Below, piece after piece: positions 12,384-20,318 of a DNA stretch of 64,000 nucleotides. Under the pieces are notes generated by a model that worked only from the letters and a program-made list of their open reading frames with translations, did not search any database and was not told where the DNA came from. The stretch's first letter is position 1; each line of letters starts with the position of its first letter. Source of the stretch: Desmonostoc muscorum LEGE 12446 (GTDB taxonomy: Bacteria; Cyanobacteriota; Cyanobacteriia; Cyanobacteriales; Nostocaceae); assembly GCF_015207005.2 (NCBI RefSeq), contig NZ_JADEXS020000002.1, positions 372,001 to 436,000 on the forward strand. Reading direction: 5' to 3'. The position numbers were made by a program, and so were the translations under genes.

Positions 12384-12470
12384 GGGGATTCAAGCCCCTC
12401 CTGACTTGGAGCCACTGAACAAGAGTTCAGTGGGGGTCTTAAACCCTTGTTCCCAAGGCGTCACGGGCAG
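12384..12470 (+). repeat. approximately 85-bp structured block (copy A)
   Basis: Starts GGGGATTCAAGCCCC and contains AGAGTTCAGTGGGGGTC and CCCTTGTTCCC, with several complementary G/C runs. A diverged copy lies on the opposite strand at 62293-62372. It is followed by pyrimidine heptamers (CCTTCTGCC) complementary to those upstream of the 97-bp block. Confidence 0.7.
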
Positions 12471-12528
12471 AGGACAGGAACCAGAATTCCCTTCTGCCTT
12501 CTGCCTCCTGCCCTCTGCCTTTCCCGAT

Positions 12529-13232
12529 AAAAGCGGCATTTCTTCACCGACAAAAGCCAACCACATTGGTTTGTTGACTCGTAGTGAGCCATCCTGTTGT
12601 AGCCTTTCCACCAGTATAATTGACATCGGATGGTGTGGAGAAAGACGAAAATGCTTTTTTGTCCACAGGCGTATCCTTACCCTACCCAGTTTGGTATCTT
12701 CTTGTTCAATGGTTTGTTCTGGGTCAGCCCAGGTACTGTCATCGTTGAGCTTAAATTTGTCACCGTGTACTCTTGGTTTCCCCCGTCCCGAATATTGTGG
12801 TGGTTCTCCCCATAAACATAGGTTGGAACGCAACCGCATCAGTTTATCTGCCTTAATTTCGGCCGTTTTGATGACAAAGGGCGCACATCCATACTCGATA
12901 TCCCATAGTGTGATTGGTCGTGATGGTAAGTCTTTACACACCTGTTTTAACTGCCATACAGCTTTGTCTATGGGATTTTCCCAACTGGTTATTCGTTCAT
13001 GTCTGAGTGGTAACGCCCAACTGCCTTCGGTTTCTGGTATCCAAGCTATTGTACTGTATCCGTATCCCACAGTTATAGGACGACCACCTCTTCCACCAGT
13101 CGTATAATGCTCGTAGGTTCTTTCTTTTAAAGTACCCGCATCTGGCCTTGACCATGCCGTATGGTCGCCTGCCAAGATGATACGTCCTTGCTTGGGAATT
13201 TTTTTACTGTATAATTGCACAGCAATTCTCAT
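12529..13232 (-). pseudogene. DDE transposase fragment (NF041680/IS701-like)
   Basis: Reads IILAGDHTAWSRPDAGTLKE, GYGYSTIAWIPETEGSWALP, LWDIEYGCAPFVIKTAEIKA and PMWLAFVGEEMPLL. This is the catalytic half of a cyanobacterial DDE transposase of the same superfamily as 17319-18794. The N-terminal 100 or so residues are missing upstream, and the C-terminus is replaced after MPLLSG by translated repeat sequence. Confidence 0.7.
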
Positions 13233-13559
13233 TTTGAAAAAAAATCAGAGAAAATTCTGTTATTTAAATAGAGAACTTGTGTCGAAGCATCATTTTTTGA
13301 CAAATAATTATCATCCAACGTTGGAGATAGACAAGTTTTAAGAAATTTGTCCATGAAAAAACGATTTCAACTGATAAATTCAGATGAAATTTTCAACAAC
13401 TTTTTAGTTTTTTTAATAAATATTTTTCTTTTCATCCTTTAATATGTTGACATTTATCAACTAGAATTTACTCTTTTTAATGGGTCATGTTCTGTGCTGA
13501 CTTTTCACGGGATGTGGAAAAGAAAGAGTAGTTCGCGATAATCTATCGCGAACCACTTG

Positions 13560-13961
13560 TTATTCTTTATTATATTTGGAAGTTTCTTCGACTAAATCTT
13601 TTAAACCCTGTTTGAGAGTCTCAATTGAACGATCTAAAGCTTCAATTTTAGTCCTTGCAGTAATTTGTTCAATGGCATCTATGTAGGCTTGACTACCAGC
13701 CTTACCTAAATGCTTGTACTTGGATAGCTTGCCATCATTTCGAGTCGTAAATATTGGTGTTGTAGCATGTAGTTTATAGTACCAATAAAATTCTTTACGC
13801 CCCTTTGCTAGGTAACGAGCGATTCTACAACTAGGTGGCGCAACAGGCGTTGAGTCGTGTATGGCAGCTACTTCAAGTTCCAGACGCTCCTTCATCGAGA
13901 TCACAAAATCTATACGCTTGTGTAAATCCTCTTGGGCTATGGTTTTTCGGTCTTTCGACAT
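13560..13961 (-). CDS. IS4 passenger protein (DUF6788-like)
   Basis: 133 residues from ATG 13961, with AGGAG 8 nt upstream. N-terminal helices (KRIDFVISMKERLELEV), then CRIARYLAKGRKEFYWYYKL and a second helix (IDAIEQITARTKIEALDRSI). The RKEFYWYYK ... YKHLGKAGSQAY arrangement resembles DUF6788-type small proteins seen near transposases. The protein is identical in copy 2 although the transposases differ. Role unknown; a DNA-binding regulator is one possibility. It is bounded by two TTCGCGA hairpins. Confidence 0.65.
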   Translation of the reverse strand: MSKDRKTIAQEDLHKRIDFVISMKERLELEVAAIHDSTPVAPPSCRIARYLAKGRKEFYWYYKLHATTPIFTTRNDGKLSKYKHLGKAGSQAYIDAIEQITARTKIEALDRSIETLKQGLKDLVEETSKYNKE

Positions 13962-14032
13962 CAAATTAACTCCTAGATTCGCGACTTGTTGTCGCGAACC
14001 ATATTCCTCCTAACAAAGGCGAGTAACTAAAA

Positions 14033-15462
14033 TCAATATATTGATTTTAGATTTTCATGTAGCAACCAACCTTGGCATAAAGTTTCTAATTCCAACCAGC
14101 CTCGCCACAAAACTTGTATCCCAATAGGGCTATTCTTCCTATGTTCTAAGTATCCGCCGAGACGTGCAATTGCTCTAATTGCCCAGTCAACTGTAAGCTG
14201 TATCTGCTTTTTTTGTTTGGGTGGAGTACTAGCAAGTAGCACGTCCATTTGTATTTTTGTTAACACCAATTCTGCTGAACTGTGCGGGGAATTCCGGTGT
14301 AGATAAGTCATTCGCAGTAATTGTGCCGCAATCACTGTTAAAAAACCTAACATTGTTGACATACTCTCCCCTGCCAAGCGGTAACTTTCCGCTTTACAGC
14401 CAGATTTTAGTATTTTGTGATATTCTTCTATCCGCCAGCGATACGTATACCATCGAAGAATTTGAGATGCTTCTGTCTGTGTTGTTATTAACTCGCTTGT
14501 CAGTAGCATCCACGTAATTGGCTCACATCCATCTGGCACATTAATTTCTGTTGCAAAGAGCGCGTAAACGTTAAAATTGCCTGACTTTTTTAACCGAGAA
14601 GGAGGATTTATTGATACTGGACAATACCTGATCTCCAAGGTGGCAGTTCTTTCTTTTCGCTTTTTAGTTTCAGGTAATTCAATCTCTTTTATAAACTGCA
14701 CTTTCTGGGATGTTACATACTCCCATAGATAAGAGTTTTCTCCTTCTAAACAACGATTGTGAGCGGCTCTGACAACTACACCTGTATTTTTATTTTTACG
14801 TTGAAGTGCGAATACTTCTGCAATATCTCCTTCATTTGTCAAAGACATGAATTACTCTTGAGAGTAGTCCCCCATCAGGCATTTCTAAACCTTTAAATAA
14901 TTTGTTTACTTTCTGAAAAACTTCAACCCATCGATAAGATTCTTTCTCTTTAAAAGCTCTATTCTTGGCGATTAAACGTTCTTTTTTTAATCGCTTTTTT
15001 TGCCGTAGATGTTTCCTCTGGTGGTGGAGATGCTTTGTGCTGTCGATGCCACAATTTCTCCCATAATAGTCCTAGTGGCTGACCAAAGTCTGGGTCTAGT
15101 GCTAAAGAACTATGTAAAATTAGTCCGTTCCCACCATTGCCCGTAGGCCCATAATCATCTCTTTTTTCTAATATTTTTTTATAATCCAGATAAGTAGTAT
15201 CTCCTACCGCTAATACTATTGGTATGCCATAAATCTCTTGTGCCGTCTGTTTAAAAGATGGTTGGGTCAATTTCTCAAAAGTTGTTTTGGGGTTAGAAAA
15301 GAATTCGTAGCCACGTTTGAGGTCACTAGCGCTTTGAAATATTTCTGATAGAGGATGACCATATTTTACTTTTAAAGCCTCCGCAATTAACACTGCTCTG
15401 TCGGTCAGACGTTTGTCACCAAAATCACAATCGCGGTACGGGTTTGCTTCTAATAGTTTCAT
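14033..15462 (-). pseudogene. IS4 transposase, frameshifted copy
   Basis: Same gene as 29290-30720, but one homopolymer is two bases shorter (T7 instead of T9 at about 14995-15001) and CGG has become ATTTG-like sequence at about 14840. The first half ends AKKAIKKRTFNRQE and the second half starts out of frame at NEGDIAEVF. The change at 14840 also destroys the VFDREGD motif with a catalytic aspartate. Confidence 0.85.
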
Positions 15463-15593
15463 TTGCACCCCAAAATACGATACTACAAGCACCTTAATAT
15501 TAGAGGACGCAAATTATCTTAAGTCCAGAGGATTGGTTCGCGACCAGCTATCGCGAACCAATCCCCTTTTCCACATCCCGTGAAAAGTCAGAA

Positions 15594-15926
15594 TCTAACC
15601 AACTTAATATACGTTTAGCCTACTATCCACCCTACCACAGCAAATATAATCCAATTGAGCGAGTATGGGGTATATTAGAAAATTCTTGGAATGGCAGTAT
15701 TTTGGACGAAGTTGAAACAGCTTTAAACTTTGCTAAAAATATGACCTGGAAAGGTAAACATCCTGTGGTTAAATTAGTGACTCAAACCTATGAAACTGGG
15801 GTTACGCTTACCAAAGATGCTATGTCTGCTGTCGAAAAACAAATAGAGCGTCTCACTAACTCAAAACATGAAAAATTTCCCAATTTAGGCAAGTGGTTTG
15901 TTGATATTTGTTGTGCCAGCACTTAA
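15594..15926 (+). pseudogene. ISAzo13-family transposase, C-terminal fragment
   Basis: Open from the IS4 boundary: NIRLAYYPPYHSKYNPIERV, then WGILENSWNGSIL, KGKHPVVKLVTQTYETGV and ERLTNSKHEKFPNLGKW. The PPYxSKYNPIE segment carries the last catalytic glutamate of this family. The 5' part is missing and is not on the other side of the IS4, so this is a recombination junction and not a simple insertion. Confidence 0.75.
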
Positions 15927-16031
15927 TTTTTATCACCAGTTCTAAAATGTTTTTACTATAAAATCATCAATATTAATTATGACCATGCACCTGACATTAT
16001 TTACAGAGTGCAGAGTTTTCGCTCTCGTGTT

Positions 16032-16080
16032 TGAGGGGGTAAGTGGTGGTTGCCGACGGCAACCACCACTTACCCCCTCA
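16032..16080. repeat. perfect 23-bp-stem palindrome
   Basis: TGAGGGGGTAAGTGGTGG runs into GTTGCC, loop GAC, then the exact complement to 16080. It lies between the ISAzo13 fragment and the phosphorylase fragment and may be an IS end or a strong bidirectional terminator. AATGATTATCATT follows at 16081-16094. Confidence 0.9.
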
Positions 16081-16092
16081 TAATGATTATCA

Positions 16093-17085
16093 TTATCTTT
16101 TAGATGTCAACTTATGATTTTTTCTGAGTAATTTATTCCTTGGAAGTCCCCAACCATCGAGTATGCTGAAACTGGGAACACCGTTATGTGCTGCTTTCAT
16201 ACCCGATGTTCCAGAAGCTTCTAAAGGTCGCTGTGGCGTGTTGAGCCATAGATCCACGCCAGATACAATCAGCTTGGATAGCTCCATGTCGTAATTTTCC
16301 AAAAAAACTATAGGTATCTGCTTCTGTAATTGGTGGGAAATTTCAAATATCCGTCGAATTAACTCTTTGCCAGCGTAATCTTTAGGGTGCGCCTTACCAG
16401 CAAAAACAAACTGTAAAGAACCAACCTGTTTGGCAATTTCCAAAAGTTGATCGATATCTGAAAAAATTAAATCTGCCCGCTTGTAAAGAGTAGCTCTGCG
16501 AGCAAAGCCAATCGTCAGAGTCTCCGCAGATAGCGAAAAATCGGTTTTTTCCTGAATGTAAGTTAAAAGACGAATTTTAGCCGCTAAATGGGCTGACCAA
16601 ATCTCCTGTTGGGGAATACTGATGGCGTGCCTTAGCATTGAGGGATCGTTACTCCAACCAGGAATATATCTCTCGTAGAGGGTTCTAAAGCTGTCACAAG
16701 TCCACGTCAATGAGTGAACACCATTTGTAATGTGGTGGATGGGATAGCCGGGGAACATTTCTTGCGAAACTTCCTCATGTCGCTTGGCAACACCGTTGAC
16801 ATAGTGGCTCAAGTTTAGTCCTAGCATAGTCATGTTTAGGCGATCGCGTCCCCCCAACATTTGCAGTACATCAAACGGCACTATGTGTCCCAAACTATAC
16901 TGCACTAAGCCGTAGTCAAACTGGTCGTGTCCTGCTGGAACAGGGGTATGAGTAGTAAAAACGCATTGATTTCTGATGCTACTAAAATCCCATGTTTCTG
17001 TATTTATCCCGTTTCGTTCTTTTAGCAACTCTAAAAGCAGCAAACTGGCGTGTCCTTCGTTCATATGGAATCTTTCAACCCACAT
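16093..17085 (-). pseudogene. glgP: alpha-glucan (glycogen) phosphorylase, internal fragment
   Basis: Contains HMNEGHASLLLLELL, CVFTTHTPVPAGHDQFDYG, HHITNGVHSLTW, IGFARRATLYKRADLIF, FVFAGKAHPKD and NTPQRPLEASGTSGMKAAHN, all marks of GT35 phosphorylases of the short (TIGR02094-like) type. About 320 of some 850 residues remain. The N-terminal part is absent upstream (IS701-like element at 17165) and the last 17 residues after ILDGWG are foreign. It cannot be functional. Confidence 0.85.
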
Positions 17086-17254
17086 TCCGCACCCTAACTG
17101 TCACAAATGGGTTTTTACTGAATATTTTCTCTATAATTAGAGTAAAAAAACACTTTACTTATTCTTGGACTTTGGACAAAAAGAAGTTTATTCGCGAGTG
17201 TGACTCGCGAATAAATGAATGATTAATCTTGTTTATAGTGACGAGCAGAAAAAA

Positions 17255-17328
17255 GCATAGCCATCAGACCCCCAACAAATAGTAATATCAACTACAAAGT
17301 ATCTTTGGGTAAATACTGATGGCTATGC
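17255..17328 (+). promoter_or_regulatory. stem that would hide the transposase start codon
   Basis: GCATAGCCATCAG at 17255-17267 is the exact complement of CTGATGGCTATGC at 17316-17328, which contains the transposase ATG (17319). An RNA read from outside the element could fold this 13-bp stem and block initiation, a known way for IS elements to limit transposition. Confidence 0.6.
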
Positions 17329-18794
17329 CAAAATTTAATAACAATCAATTAATAGCGCAATTTCAAGATTTTAGACAAAAAATTTACAACTGTTTTTCTT
17401 CATGTAGCGACGCCTGTATGGATTTGTTGGATGCGCTTGCGGGTAATACGGGAGCCAATTCAATTGCGGAGTTATCTTTAAGTCCTTTGTTTCCCAGAAG
17501 CTATAATTCTATTTATAAAGCAATTCAAAAATCATTTAATACAAATATTCAGGAGAAGAACAATGAAGAAGAAGAACAAGAAGAACAAGAAAAACCCAAT
17601 AACTTAATTAGGGTGGTATCTGAGTTAATTAAGCAACCACAACAACGCCCTTTTTACTTATTCGCTCTTGATACAACACCGCATCCGCGTCCTTACGCGA
17701 GGACTTTAGCTGAACGTGGGTATATTTACCAGCCAAATACTATCAAGGGTAACAAACCGATTAATATTGGTCATTCTTATTCGATACTTTCTATCTTACC
17801 AGAGAAAGAAACTGGGAATGCCGCCCCTTGGTCAATACCAATATCAGGAGAAAGGGTATCACTTGATAAAACTGGTGTTGATGTGGGTAGTGAACAAATT
17901 TCCTCAGTAATGTCTGATTCATCACTGCCCTGGCAGGAAAAATTGTGCGTCTTAGTAGCAGATAGCGCCTATAGTCAGCGTTCATTTCTGTTTGACCAAT
18001 CCAAACACAAAAATGTGGTAGTGATAGCCAGAGTTCGTAGTAATCGAATTTTCTACCAATCTCCACCCGTTGATGAGTCAAAGAAAAAACGTGGTTGTCC
18101 AAAAAAATACGGTGAACGGTTTAATTTAGCTGATGTTGAAACTTGGCACTCTCCCGACGAGACAACACAAATTCAGCAGACAACCTGTAAGGGTCGTCTT
18201 TTAAACATCACCATACTCGCTTGGCATCAAATGTTGATGAGGGGAACCAAGCACCAAAAAATGTATTGTCATCCTTTTACTCTGCTCAGAATTCATGTGA
18301 CTGATGATACTAATCAATCTCTCTGGAAACCAATGTGGTTAATTGTCATAGGTGAGCAACGTGGAGAAATCTCACCTACGGTTGCAAACCATTGCTATAG
18401 ACAAAGGTTTGATATTGAACACATGCTGCGATTTAGCAAGCAGCGTTTGTTGATGACGCAGTTTCAAACTCCAGATGTTTTGCATGAGGAAAATTGGATA
18501 CATTTAGTAATCCTAGCTTACGTACAGTTGTGGGCGGCAAGGGAGTTAGCAACACACTTACCCAGGCCATGGGAGCGTTATTTAGAACAAAACAATGATA
18601 AAATTGCCACTCCAAGTGTAGTGCAACGCGATTTTCAGAGAATTATTTCAGAGATTGGTACACCCGCTCGTTCTCCCAAAACCAGAGGAAATTCCATCGG
18701 TCGAGTTCAAGGTCAAGTTCAAACACAACGAACTAAGCATCCTGTTGTCAAGAAGAAGTCAAAATCAACACTCGCTAAAGTCAAAGCCGCATAA
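17319..18794 (+). CDS. DDE transposase (IS701-like)
   Basis: 491 residues, intact. N-terminus MPKFNNNQLIAQFQDFRQKI ... CMDLLDALAGNTGANSIAEL; first catalytic aspartate in YLFALDTTPHPRPYART; second in LCVLVADSAYSQRSF; the glutamate in RQRFDIEHMLRFSKQRLLM. A glutamate-rich linker lies near residue 85. The C-terminal tail is very basic (RTKHPVVKKKSKSTLAKVK). It catalyses movement of the element in which it lies. Confidence 0.85.
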   Translation: MAMPKFNNNQLIAQFQDFRQKIYNCFSSCSDACMDLLDALAGNTGANSIAELSLSPLFPRSYNSIYKAIQKSFNTNIQEKNNEEEEQEEQEKPNNLIRVVSELIKQPQQRPFYLFALDTTPHPRPYARTLAERGYIYQPNTIKGNKPINIGHSYSILSILPEKETGNAAPWSIPISGERVSLDKTGVDVGSEQISSVMSDSSLPWQEKLCVLVADSAYSQRSFLFDQSKHKNVVVIARVRSNRIFYQSPPVDESKKKRGCPKKYGERFNLADVETWHSPDETTQIQQTTCKGRLLNITILAWHQMLMRGTKHQKMYCHPFTLLRIHVTDDTNQSLWKPMWLIVIGEQRGEISPTVANHCYRQRFDIEHMLRFSKQRLLMTQFQTPDVLHEENWIHLVILAYVQLWAARELATHLPRPWERYLEQNNDKIATPSVVQRDFQRIISEIGTPARSPKTRGNSIGRVQGQVQTQRTKHPVVKKKSKSTLAKVKAA

Positions 18795-18930: not shown

Positions 18931-19923
18931 TCATGCGTTTTTCTGTTGTTGGGATAAAATTCTTTTGAGTCGTTCAAAAATTAGTGCAGCGCATTGCGGG
19001 ACAATGGCATTGCCCAGAGCGATCAACTGTTGTTTGTGTTGTCTTCTGATGGCTTGGTATTCGCAAGAGAGTTGGCGATATTCTTGTTGGCAATAGAGCG
19101 TAAGCGCTGCAATTTCTCTACGACTGAGCCGACTGAAGCTGGGGACTGTGGCAGCAGTAAGGCAATCTGTAAGTCCTGCGTGGGTAAGGAGACATCTGTC
19201 CAACCTTGCGGAAAACCCATCATCGCCTCTACTAGATGTACGTTGAGCGATCGCTCTGGCTCCGTATTCAACTGAGTTGTGACTTTGTGATGATCTGTGG
19301 AAGTTGCAATGATTACCGCCGCCGACAAATGCAGCGTTTGTCCGCTCTTTCTCGTACTGGTTCCAGGATGTATGCCGTCTTGAGCTTTGGGAGTTGGTAG
19401 CAATAATCCAAACTCGTTCTCGTTTGTGGATGGCCCCCACTTGGCTTGCCGAAAGCACTCCCCACTGCACATCAAACCCCATCTTGGCAAACTGCCATAG
19501 TACGGTGCGGAAAAATTGACCGCCTTCAGCAGTGAGCAATCCGGGTACGTTTTCCACAATTGCCCATCTTGGTCGAACTTGGCGAAGGATTCTAAAGAAC
19601 TCACTGAACAGATTGCGTTCATCCTGCGATGCAAGACGTTTTCCGGCGAGGCTAAAGGGAGGGCAGGGGAGTCCGGCGATAATACCGTCAACTTCTCCAA
19701 CTCCGACTCTTGCCAAAGACTCAACTGTAATGTCATGGATATCAGGAATAATTGGAATATGTGGGAAGCGCAGATTTAAAACTTGTTGGCAGTAATGATT
19801 AATCTCACAAAAAGCCACAGTTTCAAAACCGCCGCTAATCAAATGACCGAGGGTGAAGCCGCCAATACCAGAACAAAGGTCAAGGACTTTTTGAGTTTTA
19901 AAGGGAGTGATTTGTTCTGTCAT
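18931..19923 (-). CDS. dcm: C5 cytosine DNA methyltransferase
   Basis: 330 residues. Motif I VLDLCSGIGGFTLG, motif IV GLPCPPFSLAG with the catalytic Cys, motif VI WAIVENVPG, motif VIII KRERVWIIA and motif X ALGNAIVPQCA, in the correct order. The target-recognition region (about residues 185-290) is rich in Ser, Arg, His and Asn and overlaps a second reading frame. No restriction endonuclease is next to it, so it looks like a solitary or phage-type enzyme. ATG overlaps the upstream gene's stop (ATGA). It is the last gene of a minus-strand operon. Confidence 0.9.
   Translation of the reverse strand: MTEQITPFKTQKVLDLCSGIGGFTLGHLISGGFETVAFCEINHYCQQVLNLRFPHIPIIPDIHDITVESLARVGVGEVDGIIAGLPCPPFSLAGKRLASQDERNLFSEFFRILRQVRPRWAIVENVPGLLTAEGGQFFRTVLWQFAKMGFDVQWGVLSASQVGAIHKRERVWIIATNSQSSRRHTSWNQYEKERTNAAFVGGGNHCNFHRSSQSHNSVEYGARAIAQRTSSRGDDGFSARLDRCLLTHAGLTDCLTAATVPSFSRLSRREIAALTLYCQQEYRQLSCEYQAIRRQHKQQLIALGNAIVPQCAALIFERLKRILSQQQKNA
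19023..19736 (-). CDS. fully nested reading frame inside dcm
   Basis: 237 residues from ATG 19736 to the stop at 19023, on the same strand as dcm but in the +1 frame. It reads SSLESFAKFDQDGQLWKT, GSLPRWGLMCSGECFRQAKW, LLLPTPKAQDGI and HLVEAMMGFPQGWTDV. These resemble the conserved PRWGxMxxGECF ... LPTPxAxDG ... LMGFPxGWTD pattern of small phage and cyanobacterial proteins found beside cytosine methyltransferases (from memory, not checked). The unbroken length and these motifs suggest real dual coding. No ribosome-binding site is obvious. Confidence 0.45.
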   Translation of the reverse strand: MTLQLSLWQESELEKLTVLSPDSPALPLASPENVLHRRMNAICSVSSLESFAKFDQDGQLWKTYPDCSLLKAVNFSAPYYGSLPRWGLMCSGECFRQAKWGPSTNENEFGLLLPTPKAQDGIHPGTSTRKSGQTLHLSAAVIIATSTDHHKVTTQLNTEPERSLNVHLVEAMMGFPQGWTDVSLPTQDLQIALLLPQSPASVGSVVEKLQRLRSIANKNIANSLANTKPSEDNTNNS

Positions 19924-20318
19924 ACTTTCCTGCCTAACAAGTAATTAATTGCTTCTGGATCAAGAGAGGTGATACGTTTTTTAATTGATTGAGGTGGGTT
20001 ATCAAAAAACTGCTTAAGATGCCATCTCCGAATTTGGTAATGTCTGGCAGAACGTTTTGTAGCTTTGAGCCATCCTCTTTTTACCCACCTTGTGACAGTT
20101 GAGAAATTCAATTGAAGAACTTGAGCAATTTCTTTACAAGAATAGTTATCAAGAGTGGGACGGGCTGAATAACCTAAGCTATTTAACTTCAGATAAATTG
20201 CAACTGGTGTGCGATAGAATCCTCGTCTTTTTAGGCTTGAGGCTATTTGCTTGATTGTATAGACTTCAGCTTTCGCCTCAATAATTTCTAGTTCTTCATC
20301 ACTCCATTTGATATTCAT
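19920..20318 (-). CDS. DNA-binding helix-turn-helix protein
   Basis: 132 residues. N-terminus MNIKWSDEELEIIEAKAEVY, then YTIKQIASSLKRRGFYRTPV is Myb/SANT-like; the second half (SCKEIAQVLQLNFSTVTRWV KRGWL) is MerR-like helix-turn-helix. Both neighbours overlap it by 4 bp. It is probably the operon's regulator or a DNA-binding partner of the methyltransferase. Confidence 0.65.
   Translation of the reverse strand: MNIKWSDEELEIIEAKAEVYTIKQIASSLKRRGFYRTPVAIYLKLNSLGYSARPTLDNYSCKEIAQVLQLNFSTVTRWVKRGWLKATKRSARHYQIRRWHLKQFFDNPPQSIKKRITSLDPEAINYLLGRKV

Follow-up and report, generated by a model that had tools for sequence, protein, structure and literature searches.

A single locus of Desmonostoc muscorum LEGE 12446 very probably encodes one predicted heterodimeric C5 DNA methyltransferase in two overlapping reading frames. 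Within the 64,000-nucleotide stretch that we analysed (hereafter the window), the catalytic subunit, alpha (330 aa), occupies 18931..19923 on the minus strand, and a protein nested in its +1 frame, beta (237 aa), occupies 19023..19736 on the same strand; beta is the proposed recognition and motif IX subunit. Alpha would bind AdoMet and carry the catalytic cysteine within motifs I-VIII, followed by a disordered stretch and then by motif X. Beta, started from its own ATG inside the alpha gene, would provide the DNA-recognition region, made of LPTP modules, and motif IX, and its binding to alpha would complete the enzyme. From the sequence comparisons presented below we infer that beta is translated in the cell of the window, binds alpha and decides the target sequence.

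Alpha is a methyltransferase without a recognisable motif IX

Alpha matched PF00145 at 7.6e-44, over residues 12-194 only (positions 2-181 of the 324 in the profile), and phrog_363 at 9.4e-65. TIGR00675 covers residues 13-184 with the N-terminal half of its profile, and HhaI, found by searching PDB sequences, matches residues 12-177. The motif numbers given to the alpha segments follow those of the C5 methyltransferase family. Sequence and alignment place motif I (VLDLCSGIGG) at 19858..19887, and alignment places motif IV with the catalytic Pro-Cys (GLPCPPFS) at 19651..19674, motif VI (ENV) at 19546..19554 and motif VIII (KRERVWII) at 19402..19425, all on the minus strand. Motifs IV and VI lie within the overlap, and the DNA of motif VIII reads into ENEFGLL in the beta frame. 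The hallmarks of a C5 methyltransferase, namely motif I, the catalytic PC, ENV and the RxR of motif VIII, are thus all present. Motif X (QQLIALGNAIVPQ; 18994..19032, minus strand, by alignment) is found about 120 residues beyond motifs I-VIII. P86 and C87, E124 and N125, and G304 and N305 are invariant in 11 of 11 aligned alphas.

A profile of 46 alphas aligned with 18 canonical dcm proteins over motifs I-VIII only (E 5.8e-38), and a viral motif-IX profile gave no match in frame 0, the alpha frame, of the window. In alpha, the catalytic motifs are not accompanied by the recognition region and motif IX; it is an incomplete methyltransferase with motifs I-VIII and X and no recognisable motif IX. 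The statement of the first-pass annotation that all catalytic motifs are intact therefore stands for I-VIII and X, but motif IX is in the nested frame. An AlphaFold2 model of alpha (46 sequences; pLDDT 75.4, pTM 0.68) has a core of motifs I-VIII mostly above 85 pLDDT, motif X at 64-67 and the final 20 residues at about 90. Residues 205-260 (19144..19311, minus strand), which stand in the place of the recognition region of canonical enzymes, fall below 50 and are predicted to be disordered.

The nested frame belongs to a protein family

The first-pass annotation had pointed to 237 codons opening with ATG in the +1 frame inside the methyltransferase gene, and this was confirmed in the list of open reading frames. 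The whole open frame extends over 250 codons from alpha nucleotide 149 (19026..19775, minus strand), and the beta ATG lies at alpha nucleotide 188 (19734..19736, minus strand). All three motifs quoted at that time were found in the beta translation. The profile search of the nested protein that had been proposed gave a match to phrog_1008 over two stretches (4.8e-17, 63 bits), a family whose name, 'DNA methyltransferase', hides that the match here sits off the frame of the catalytic subunit. The family to which the motifs had been likened was thus recovered. It does not merely stand beside such methyltransferases: among the best 80 of 277 confirmed viral matches selected by beta motifs, beta lies in the +1 frame of alpha in 78, and none of the 80 loci is without alpha.

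Searches of Pfam, NCBIfam and PDB sequences with beta gave no match, and phrog_1008 matches occur in 6 of 292 genomes of the phylum. A 78-row beta profile matched 2636 of 8000 scored candidates of a protein database at 1e-5; among the 120 matches listed, the named ones are annotated as hypothetical protein or as DNA (cytosine-5)-methyltransferase 1. A viral scan with the alpha of the window as sole query found nothing, alignments being required; with a viral beta as query, matches at 1e-5 came from 187 phage records. A ParB-like domain considered in the long beta of another locus (L030) was dropped, as Pfam gave no family.

Three parts of beta can be distinguished, all on the minus strand: an N part (LESFAKFD..LWKT..PRWGLMCSGE..LPTPKAQDG; 19374..19595), defined by alignments and the viral profile; an LPTP/variable part (19263..19400), the proposed recognition region according to alignment and substitution pattern; and a motif IX-like segment (EPERSLNVHLVEAMMGFPQGWTDV; 19191..19262), which scores 31.6 bits with the viral motif-IX profile. 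Eleven aligned betas share invariant M89, G92, L113, P114, A118, E170, W179 and T180. The C-terminal segment, RSLNxxxVExMMGFPxGWTD, is similar to motif IX of canonical enzymes (RRLTPRECARLQGFPDSF in the control gene L201). When beta was compared with canonical enzymes by hhalign, the sole match placed residues 159-182 on motif IX and was not significant (E 0.074, probability 0.8%). Relatives in which the segment stands before motif X in one chain provide the better link to motif IX. An AlphaFold2 model of beta alone was poor (pLDDT 62.7, pTM 0.30), which we count against the heterodimer; it would fit a fold that depends on a partner, or a weak alignment.

Beta is not an echo of the methyltransferase

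Because alpha and beta are read from the same nucleotides, we permuted the synonymous codons of alpha and rescored the +1 frame. The 250-codon open stretch of the window was reached in 10 of 2000 shuffles, and those of nine other Nostoc-group genes in 0 to 33 of 2000; the length of the +2 frame of the window is unremarkable (786 of 2000). Using HMMs built from viral rows only, cut from a joint alignment, the +1 frame of the window scored 76.4 bits with the beta N part (shuffle maximum 48.2) and 31.6 bits with motif IX (shuffle maximum 11.7), and none of 1000 shuffles reached either score. Three relatives, L009, L012 and L032, behaved in the same way: for neither part was the real score equalled or exceeded in any of 1000 shuffles. 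Shuffles still averaged 24 bits with the N part, against 76 for the real sequence; an echo of alpha in this part exists and is substantial, yet it is far below the real score.

We then took viral genes picked by alpha alone (the best 80 of 589 confirmed matches) and scored them with HMMs whose source alignment contains the window. In 78 of these genes the longest +1 frame was longer than in at least 95 of 100 shuffles, and in 70 it was longer than in all 100; the +2 frame gave 5 and 0. With the motif-IX profile, the +1 frame outscored each of its 100 shuffles in 74 of the 80 genes; with the beta N profile it did so in 47 and failed in 33. In the +2 frame the corresponding numbers are 3 and 1. 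Among 30 canonical dcm genes of the bacterial order of the window, scored with the same HMMs, a long +1 frame was present in 2, a long +2 frame in 3, and the beta profiles in none. It should be noted that the three viral sets used in this study, selected by beta motifs, by alpha, or as relatives of locus L173 (the best 80 of 598 confirmed matches), are best matches from scans that each ended at 600 stretches and not random samples, and that contigs recur across them (e.g., L095/L195 and L173/L235), so that counts from different sets are not additive. Beta is a conserved, selected protein and not a mere echo of the methyltransferase.

Constraint is relayed from alpha to beta and back

In a +1 overlap, the first codon positions of alpha are the third positions of beta. 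In nine Nostoc-group genes, the 94 codons outside the overlap had 27/15/62 variable columns at alpha positions 1/2/3, and the 230 codons inside it had 118/68/114; in the overlap, alpha third positions vary less (p=0.0097) and first positions more (p=0.0002). The catalytic part of the overlap had 44/19/61 variable columns in 116 codons, and the variable part 74/49/52 in 113. Compared with the 61 N-terminal codons alone, the catalytic part showed a third-position drop (p=0.016) and no significant first-position rise (p=0.32).

The mismatch rates at alpha positions 1/2/3 in 71 disjoint IMG/VR pairs were.112/.067/.315 in motifs I-V,.138/.069/.211 in VI-VIII,.322/.165/.155 in the recognition region,.211/.093/.088 in the beta motif IX and.124/.074/.304 in motif X. 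Alpha third positions changed more than first positions in I-V in 71 of 71 pairs and in motif X in 61 pairs against 3 (5 ties), and first more than third in the recognition region in 59 against 6 (4 ties) and in motif IX in 56 against 4 (9 ties). A pool of 82 pairs, 71 of them from IMG/VR, gave the same outcome. From the recognition region to motif X of canonical enzymes, third positions change most (.176/.122/.445, from 3 pairs only).

Constraint is thus relayed from alpha (I-VIII) to beta (recognition region and IX) and again to alpha (X), and it turns between the frames of the Nostoc-group genes as in the viral pairs. This is the outcome of the test of constraint in both frames that the first-pass annotation had suggested: beta-like substitution in the recognition region and motif IX, alpha-like in I-VIII and X. 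This pattern and the predicted disorder of alpha residues 205-260 are the indirect grounds on which we propose that the recognition region lies in beta.

Frames and architectures across relatives

The first-pass annotation had stated that homologous genes without the open frame, together with motifs similar to no protein, would refute it. All 10 complete Nostoc-group genes keep the nested frame open (the incomplete loci L013 and L014 being left out of the count), and the frame is unusually long in the 78 of 80 viral genes mentioned above. A methyltransferase with an overlapping partner, as it had been proposed, is therefore supported by the open frames, the family match, the shuffles and the constraint tests.

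Motif IX matched in the +1 frame in 73 of the best 80 of 589 alpha-selected viral loci; here, as for the beta-selected loci, the HMMs were those whose source alignment contains the window. Among the others, L120 and L135 stop at a contig end, L141, L144, L177 and L181 have a divergent MGFP/MGYP/LGYP segment in the +1 frame by eye, and L173 has motif IX in the alpha frame. In the best 80 of 598 relatives of L173, motif IX is in the +1 frame in 49, 2 are truncated, and 29, including the contig of L173 itself, carry motif IX in alpha directly before motif X, with the beta N part still in the +1 frame. Beta is shortened and ends ahead of IX in those of the 29 that were displayed. As a nested beta remains in these loci, the supply of motif IX is not its only job. 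Mycobacteriophage Phasih (L006) joins an LPTP segment, IX and X to alpha in a single chain and retains the beta N part in the +1 frame; in mycobacteriophage Backyardigan (L315), gp74 ends after motif VIII and gp73, in the +1 frame, holds the LPTP segments, IX and X.

In the two beta-selected loci outside the +1 rule (2 of the best 80 of 277), beta is in the frame of alpha itself, as a single ORF in L055 and after a stop in L057, apparently as a result of indels. In two cyanobacterial loci, alpha is wholly enclosed by a longer ORF of the beta frame, which has 732 codons in L027 and 600 in L029. By eye, the C-terminal parts of these ORFs (L027:1196-3391; L029 on the reverse strand) are alike, YPRVEG...HWYxAY.

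A quick tree of 214 alphas (214 of 269 distinct rows, at <90% identity, with canonical enzymes from one bacterial order) split off 29 canonical enzymes by a branch with 100% SH-aLRT. On this tree, the type with motif IX in alpha needs two changes, one of them at the long branch of Phasih.

Some further arrangements were seen. The predicted protein P0012 joins the alpha start to the beta frame, into which an HNH_3 match (1.7e-08) and a weak AP2 match are inserted. L017 and L022 (genome G042) have a beta-like stretch with one TAG stop in the +2 frame of alpha, perhaps a decayed copy. L227 (genome G492) has a beta-like chain that unites LPTP, IX and X in a single frame; the adjacent ORF resembles a transposase by eye.

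How beta may be started

In 54 of 151 IMG/VR loci with a +1 motif-IX match, the starts of alpha and beta are separated by 4 nt, the alpha start codon being directly followed by A and then by the beta ATG (the pattern required ATG for beta). One leader could serve both alpha and beta at such tandem starts. In the 25 rows listed, alpha starts with ATG in 13, GTG in 6 and TTG in 6. The beta frame opens only within alpha in 76 of the 151 loci, as in the window. No clear Shine-Dalgarno sequence was seen by eye at the beta ATG of the window, which also counts against the heterodimer. This ATG is kept in 10 of 10 Nostoc-group genes, where the His codon of alpha could be CAC; His codons in these alpha genes are 45 CAC to 39 CAT.

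When these observations are considered jointly, the following picture of a phage-type C5 methyltransferase clade, in which one stretch of DNA makes one enzyme in two frames, seems reasonably probable as a whole. Catalysis would reside in alpha, and recognition and motif IX in the nested +1 beta, along which alpha would be filler until it takes up again with motif X. The split apparently has a single origin and was kept in phages, plasmids and cyanobacteria, and motif IX apparently moved between the frames more than once. Starts 4 nt apart would set the subunit ratio in many phages, and the nesting would be inverted in some cyanobacteria, with alpha within a longer beta-frame gene.

Alternative explanations

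We first suspected that the conserved motifs of alpha simply force similar strings and few stops on the +1 frame, no product being made. The 24-bit average of shuffled alphas, the 10 of 2000 shuffles that attain the open length and the long +1 frame of 2 of 30 canonical dcm genes are what such an echo would produce. The profile scores of the window, attained by 0 of 1000 shuffles, are not, nor is a motif IX score that no shuffle attains in 74 of the 80 viral genes picked by alpha and in 0 of 30 canonical dcm genes. Moreover, within the overlap, change is reduced at the third positions of alpha and increased at those of beta, and the beta frame of L027 and L029 extends beyond alpha on both sides. 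The echo was ruled out as the source of the similarity by the shuffles and the dcm control, and we leave it almost no probability.

If beta is a real protein, it might still have a separate job, as an inhibitor, a regulator or a DNA-binding accessory, rather than be a subunit; the N part that persists in those 29 of the 80 L173 relatives whose motif IX lies in alpha would agree with this. We consider it unlikely, as alpha is without motif IX where beta has one, a segment of this kind is part of one chain in Phasih and of a split pair in Backyardigan, and constraint is relayed and not just added. Alternatively, a programmed frameshift from alpha I-VIII into the beta recognition region and IX, and a second one back for X, could yield one chain, since the relay of constraint reads as one protein, and P0012 and L055 join both frames. 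This would require two opposite shifts; beta is provided with separate starts (tandem in 54 of 151 loci, and the ATG kept in 10 of 10), and its N part over VI-VIII is itself conserved (above all shuffles in 47 of 80). The joins in L055 and P0012 are ahead of motif VI and would lose ENV, so that both look like indels. The frameshift is accordingly very improbable, and the heterodimer of alpha and nested beta remains our preferred reading.

Known systems and annotation

The beta subunit of M.EcoHK31I is encoded in an alternative frame inside the alpha gene, and the small subunit of the window likewise lies in another frame within the gene of the large one. As described in PMC3404938, M.EcoHK31I (YGGCCR) is a two-polypeptide C5 methyltransferase with motifs I-VIII and X in the large subunit and IX alone in the small one, and M.AquI (CYCGRG) has I-VIII in the larger subunit and IX-X in the smaller. 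An enzyme split in two is hence of a kind already known. As in M.EcoHK31I, the large subunit of the window has I-VIII and X and lacks IX; motif IX in the small subunit is supported by the viral profile and by the one-chain relatives. The same source gives the M.EcoHK31I recognition region as predicted in the large subunit, whereas here alpha 205-260 is predicted to be disordered, with beta-like substitutions, and we put this region in the nested beta; the likeness of the two enzymes is by description. Going by that text, the window resembles M.AquI in being split in two polypeptides, the smaller with motif IX, and differs from it in having motif X in alpha. An M.AquI-like look occurs within the LPTP group in Backyardigan gp74/gp73, P0011, P0014 and P0015.

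Paenibacillus phage Likha gp51/gp52 (L316; 304-1341 and 488-1192, offset +1) are both annotated as DNA methyltransferase; the likeness is by GenBank annotation alone, and the record shown states no mechanism. In PMC11855218, the ShiLan element has a homing HNH endonuclease in an insert, in a 'third frame'; unlike the beta of the window, this HNH is not part of the methyltransferase, and, being out of frame, it may be compared with the HNH_3 match of P0012. A literature search, with subscription papers and REBASE outside its scope, found no description of a family-wide nested beta. The recognition region in a nested frame, the breadth across the phage-type clade, the tandem starts and the frame swaps of motif IX look new.

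Ten of 12 public records examined (9 phage, 3 plasmid) name one frame only. Both are named in Likha (both frames) and Backyardigan (both halves), beta only in SOVA965 and phPA-G, and alpha only in eight: MW202627, S-H1, Phasih, MW202462, SBP5phi2 and the Nostoc, Leptospira and Acinetobacter plasmids. In Pseudomonas phage VB_PaD_phPA-G (L317:868-1609), beta is annotated as a hypothetical protein, and the overlapping alpha is absent from the record. The two-frame arrangement recurs in many phage genomes. If our reading is true, half of the enzyme is absent from the annotation of many genomes carrying the family, and anyone who predicts motifs, clones the gene or assigns methylomes with only the annotated frame would fail. 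The family would also form a large natural collection of long overprinting on one strand, from bacteria as well as phages, in which each frame is open to an assay of enzyme activity.

Genomic neighbourhood and a second copy

A helix-turn-helix gene (19920..20318, minus strand; HTH_23, 6.8e-07) lies upstream of alpha and overlaps its start by 4 nt, and a DDE transposase gene (17319-18794) adjoins the alpha gene. A small gene is also found upstream of alpha in plasmid pC052_A of Nostoc sp. C052, where alpha alone is annotated. Three upstream ORFs tested against PADLOC families gave no match. The eight named loci closest to the gene of the window are all from Nostoc.

The 9.6 Mb genome, in which the window spans G000:C2:372001-436000, has a second copy of the gene (L031; G000:C2:269832-270821). 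Its alpha differs at 21 nt, 20 of them in the first 153 nt and one at nt 927, its beta span is identical at the DNA level, and its flanks are unlike those of the window in an ungapped comparison. We read this copy as a possible product of recent recombination or cassette transfer. In the window, a cluster of transposase ORFs (DDE_5, Tn5-like pieces) occupies 12390-18794, and amid it lies a partial phosphorylase-like ORF (16093-17085) that matches PF00343 positions 321-579 of 713.
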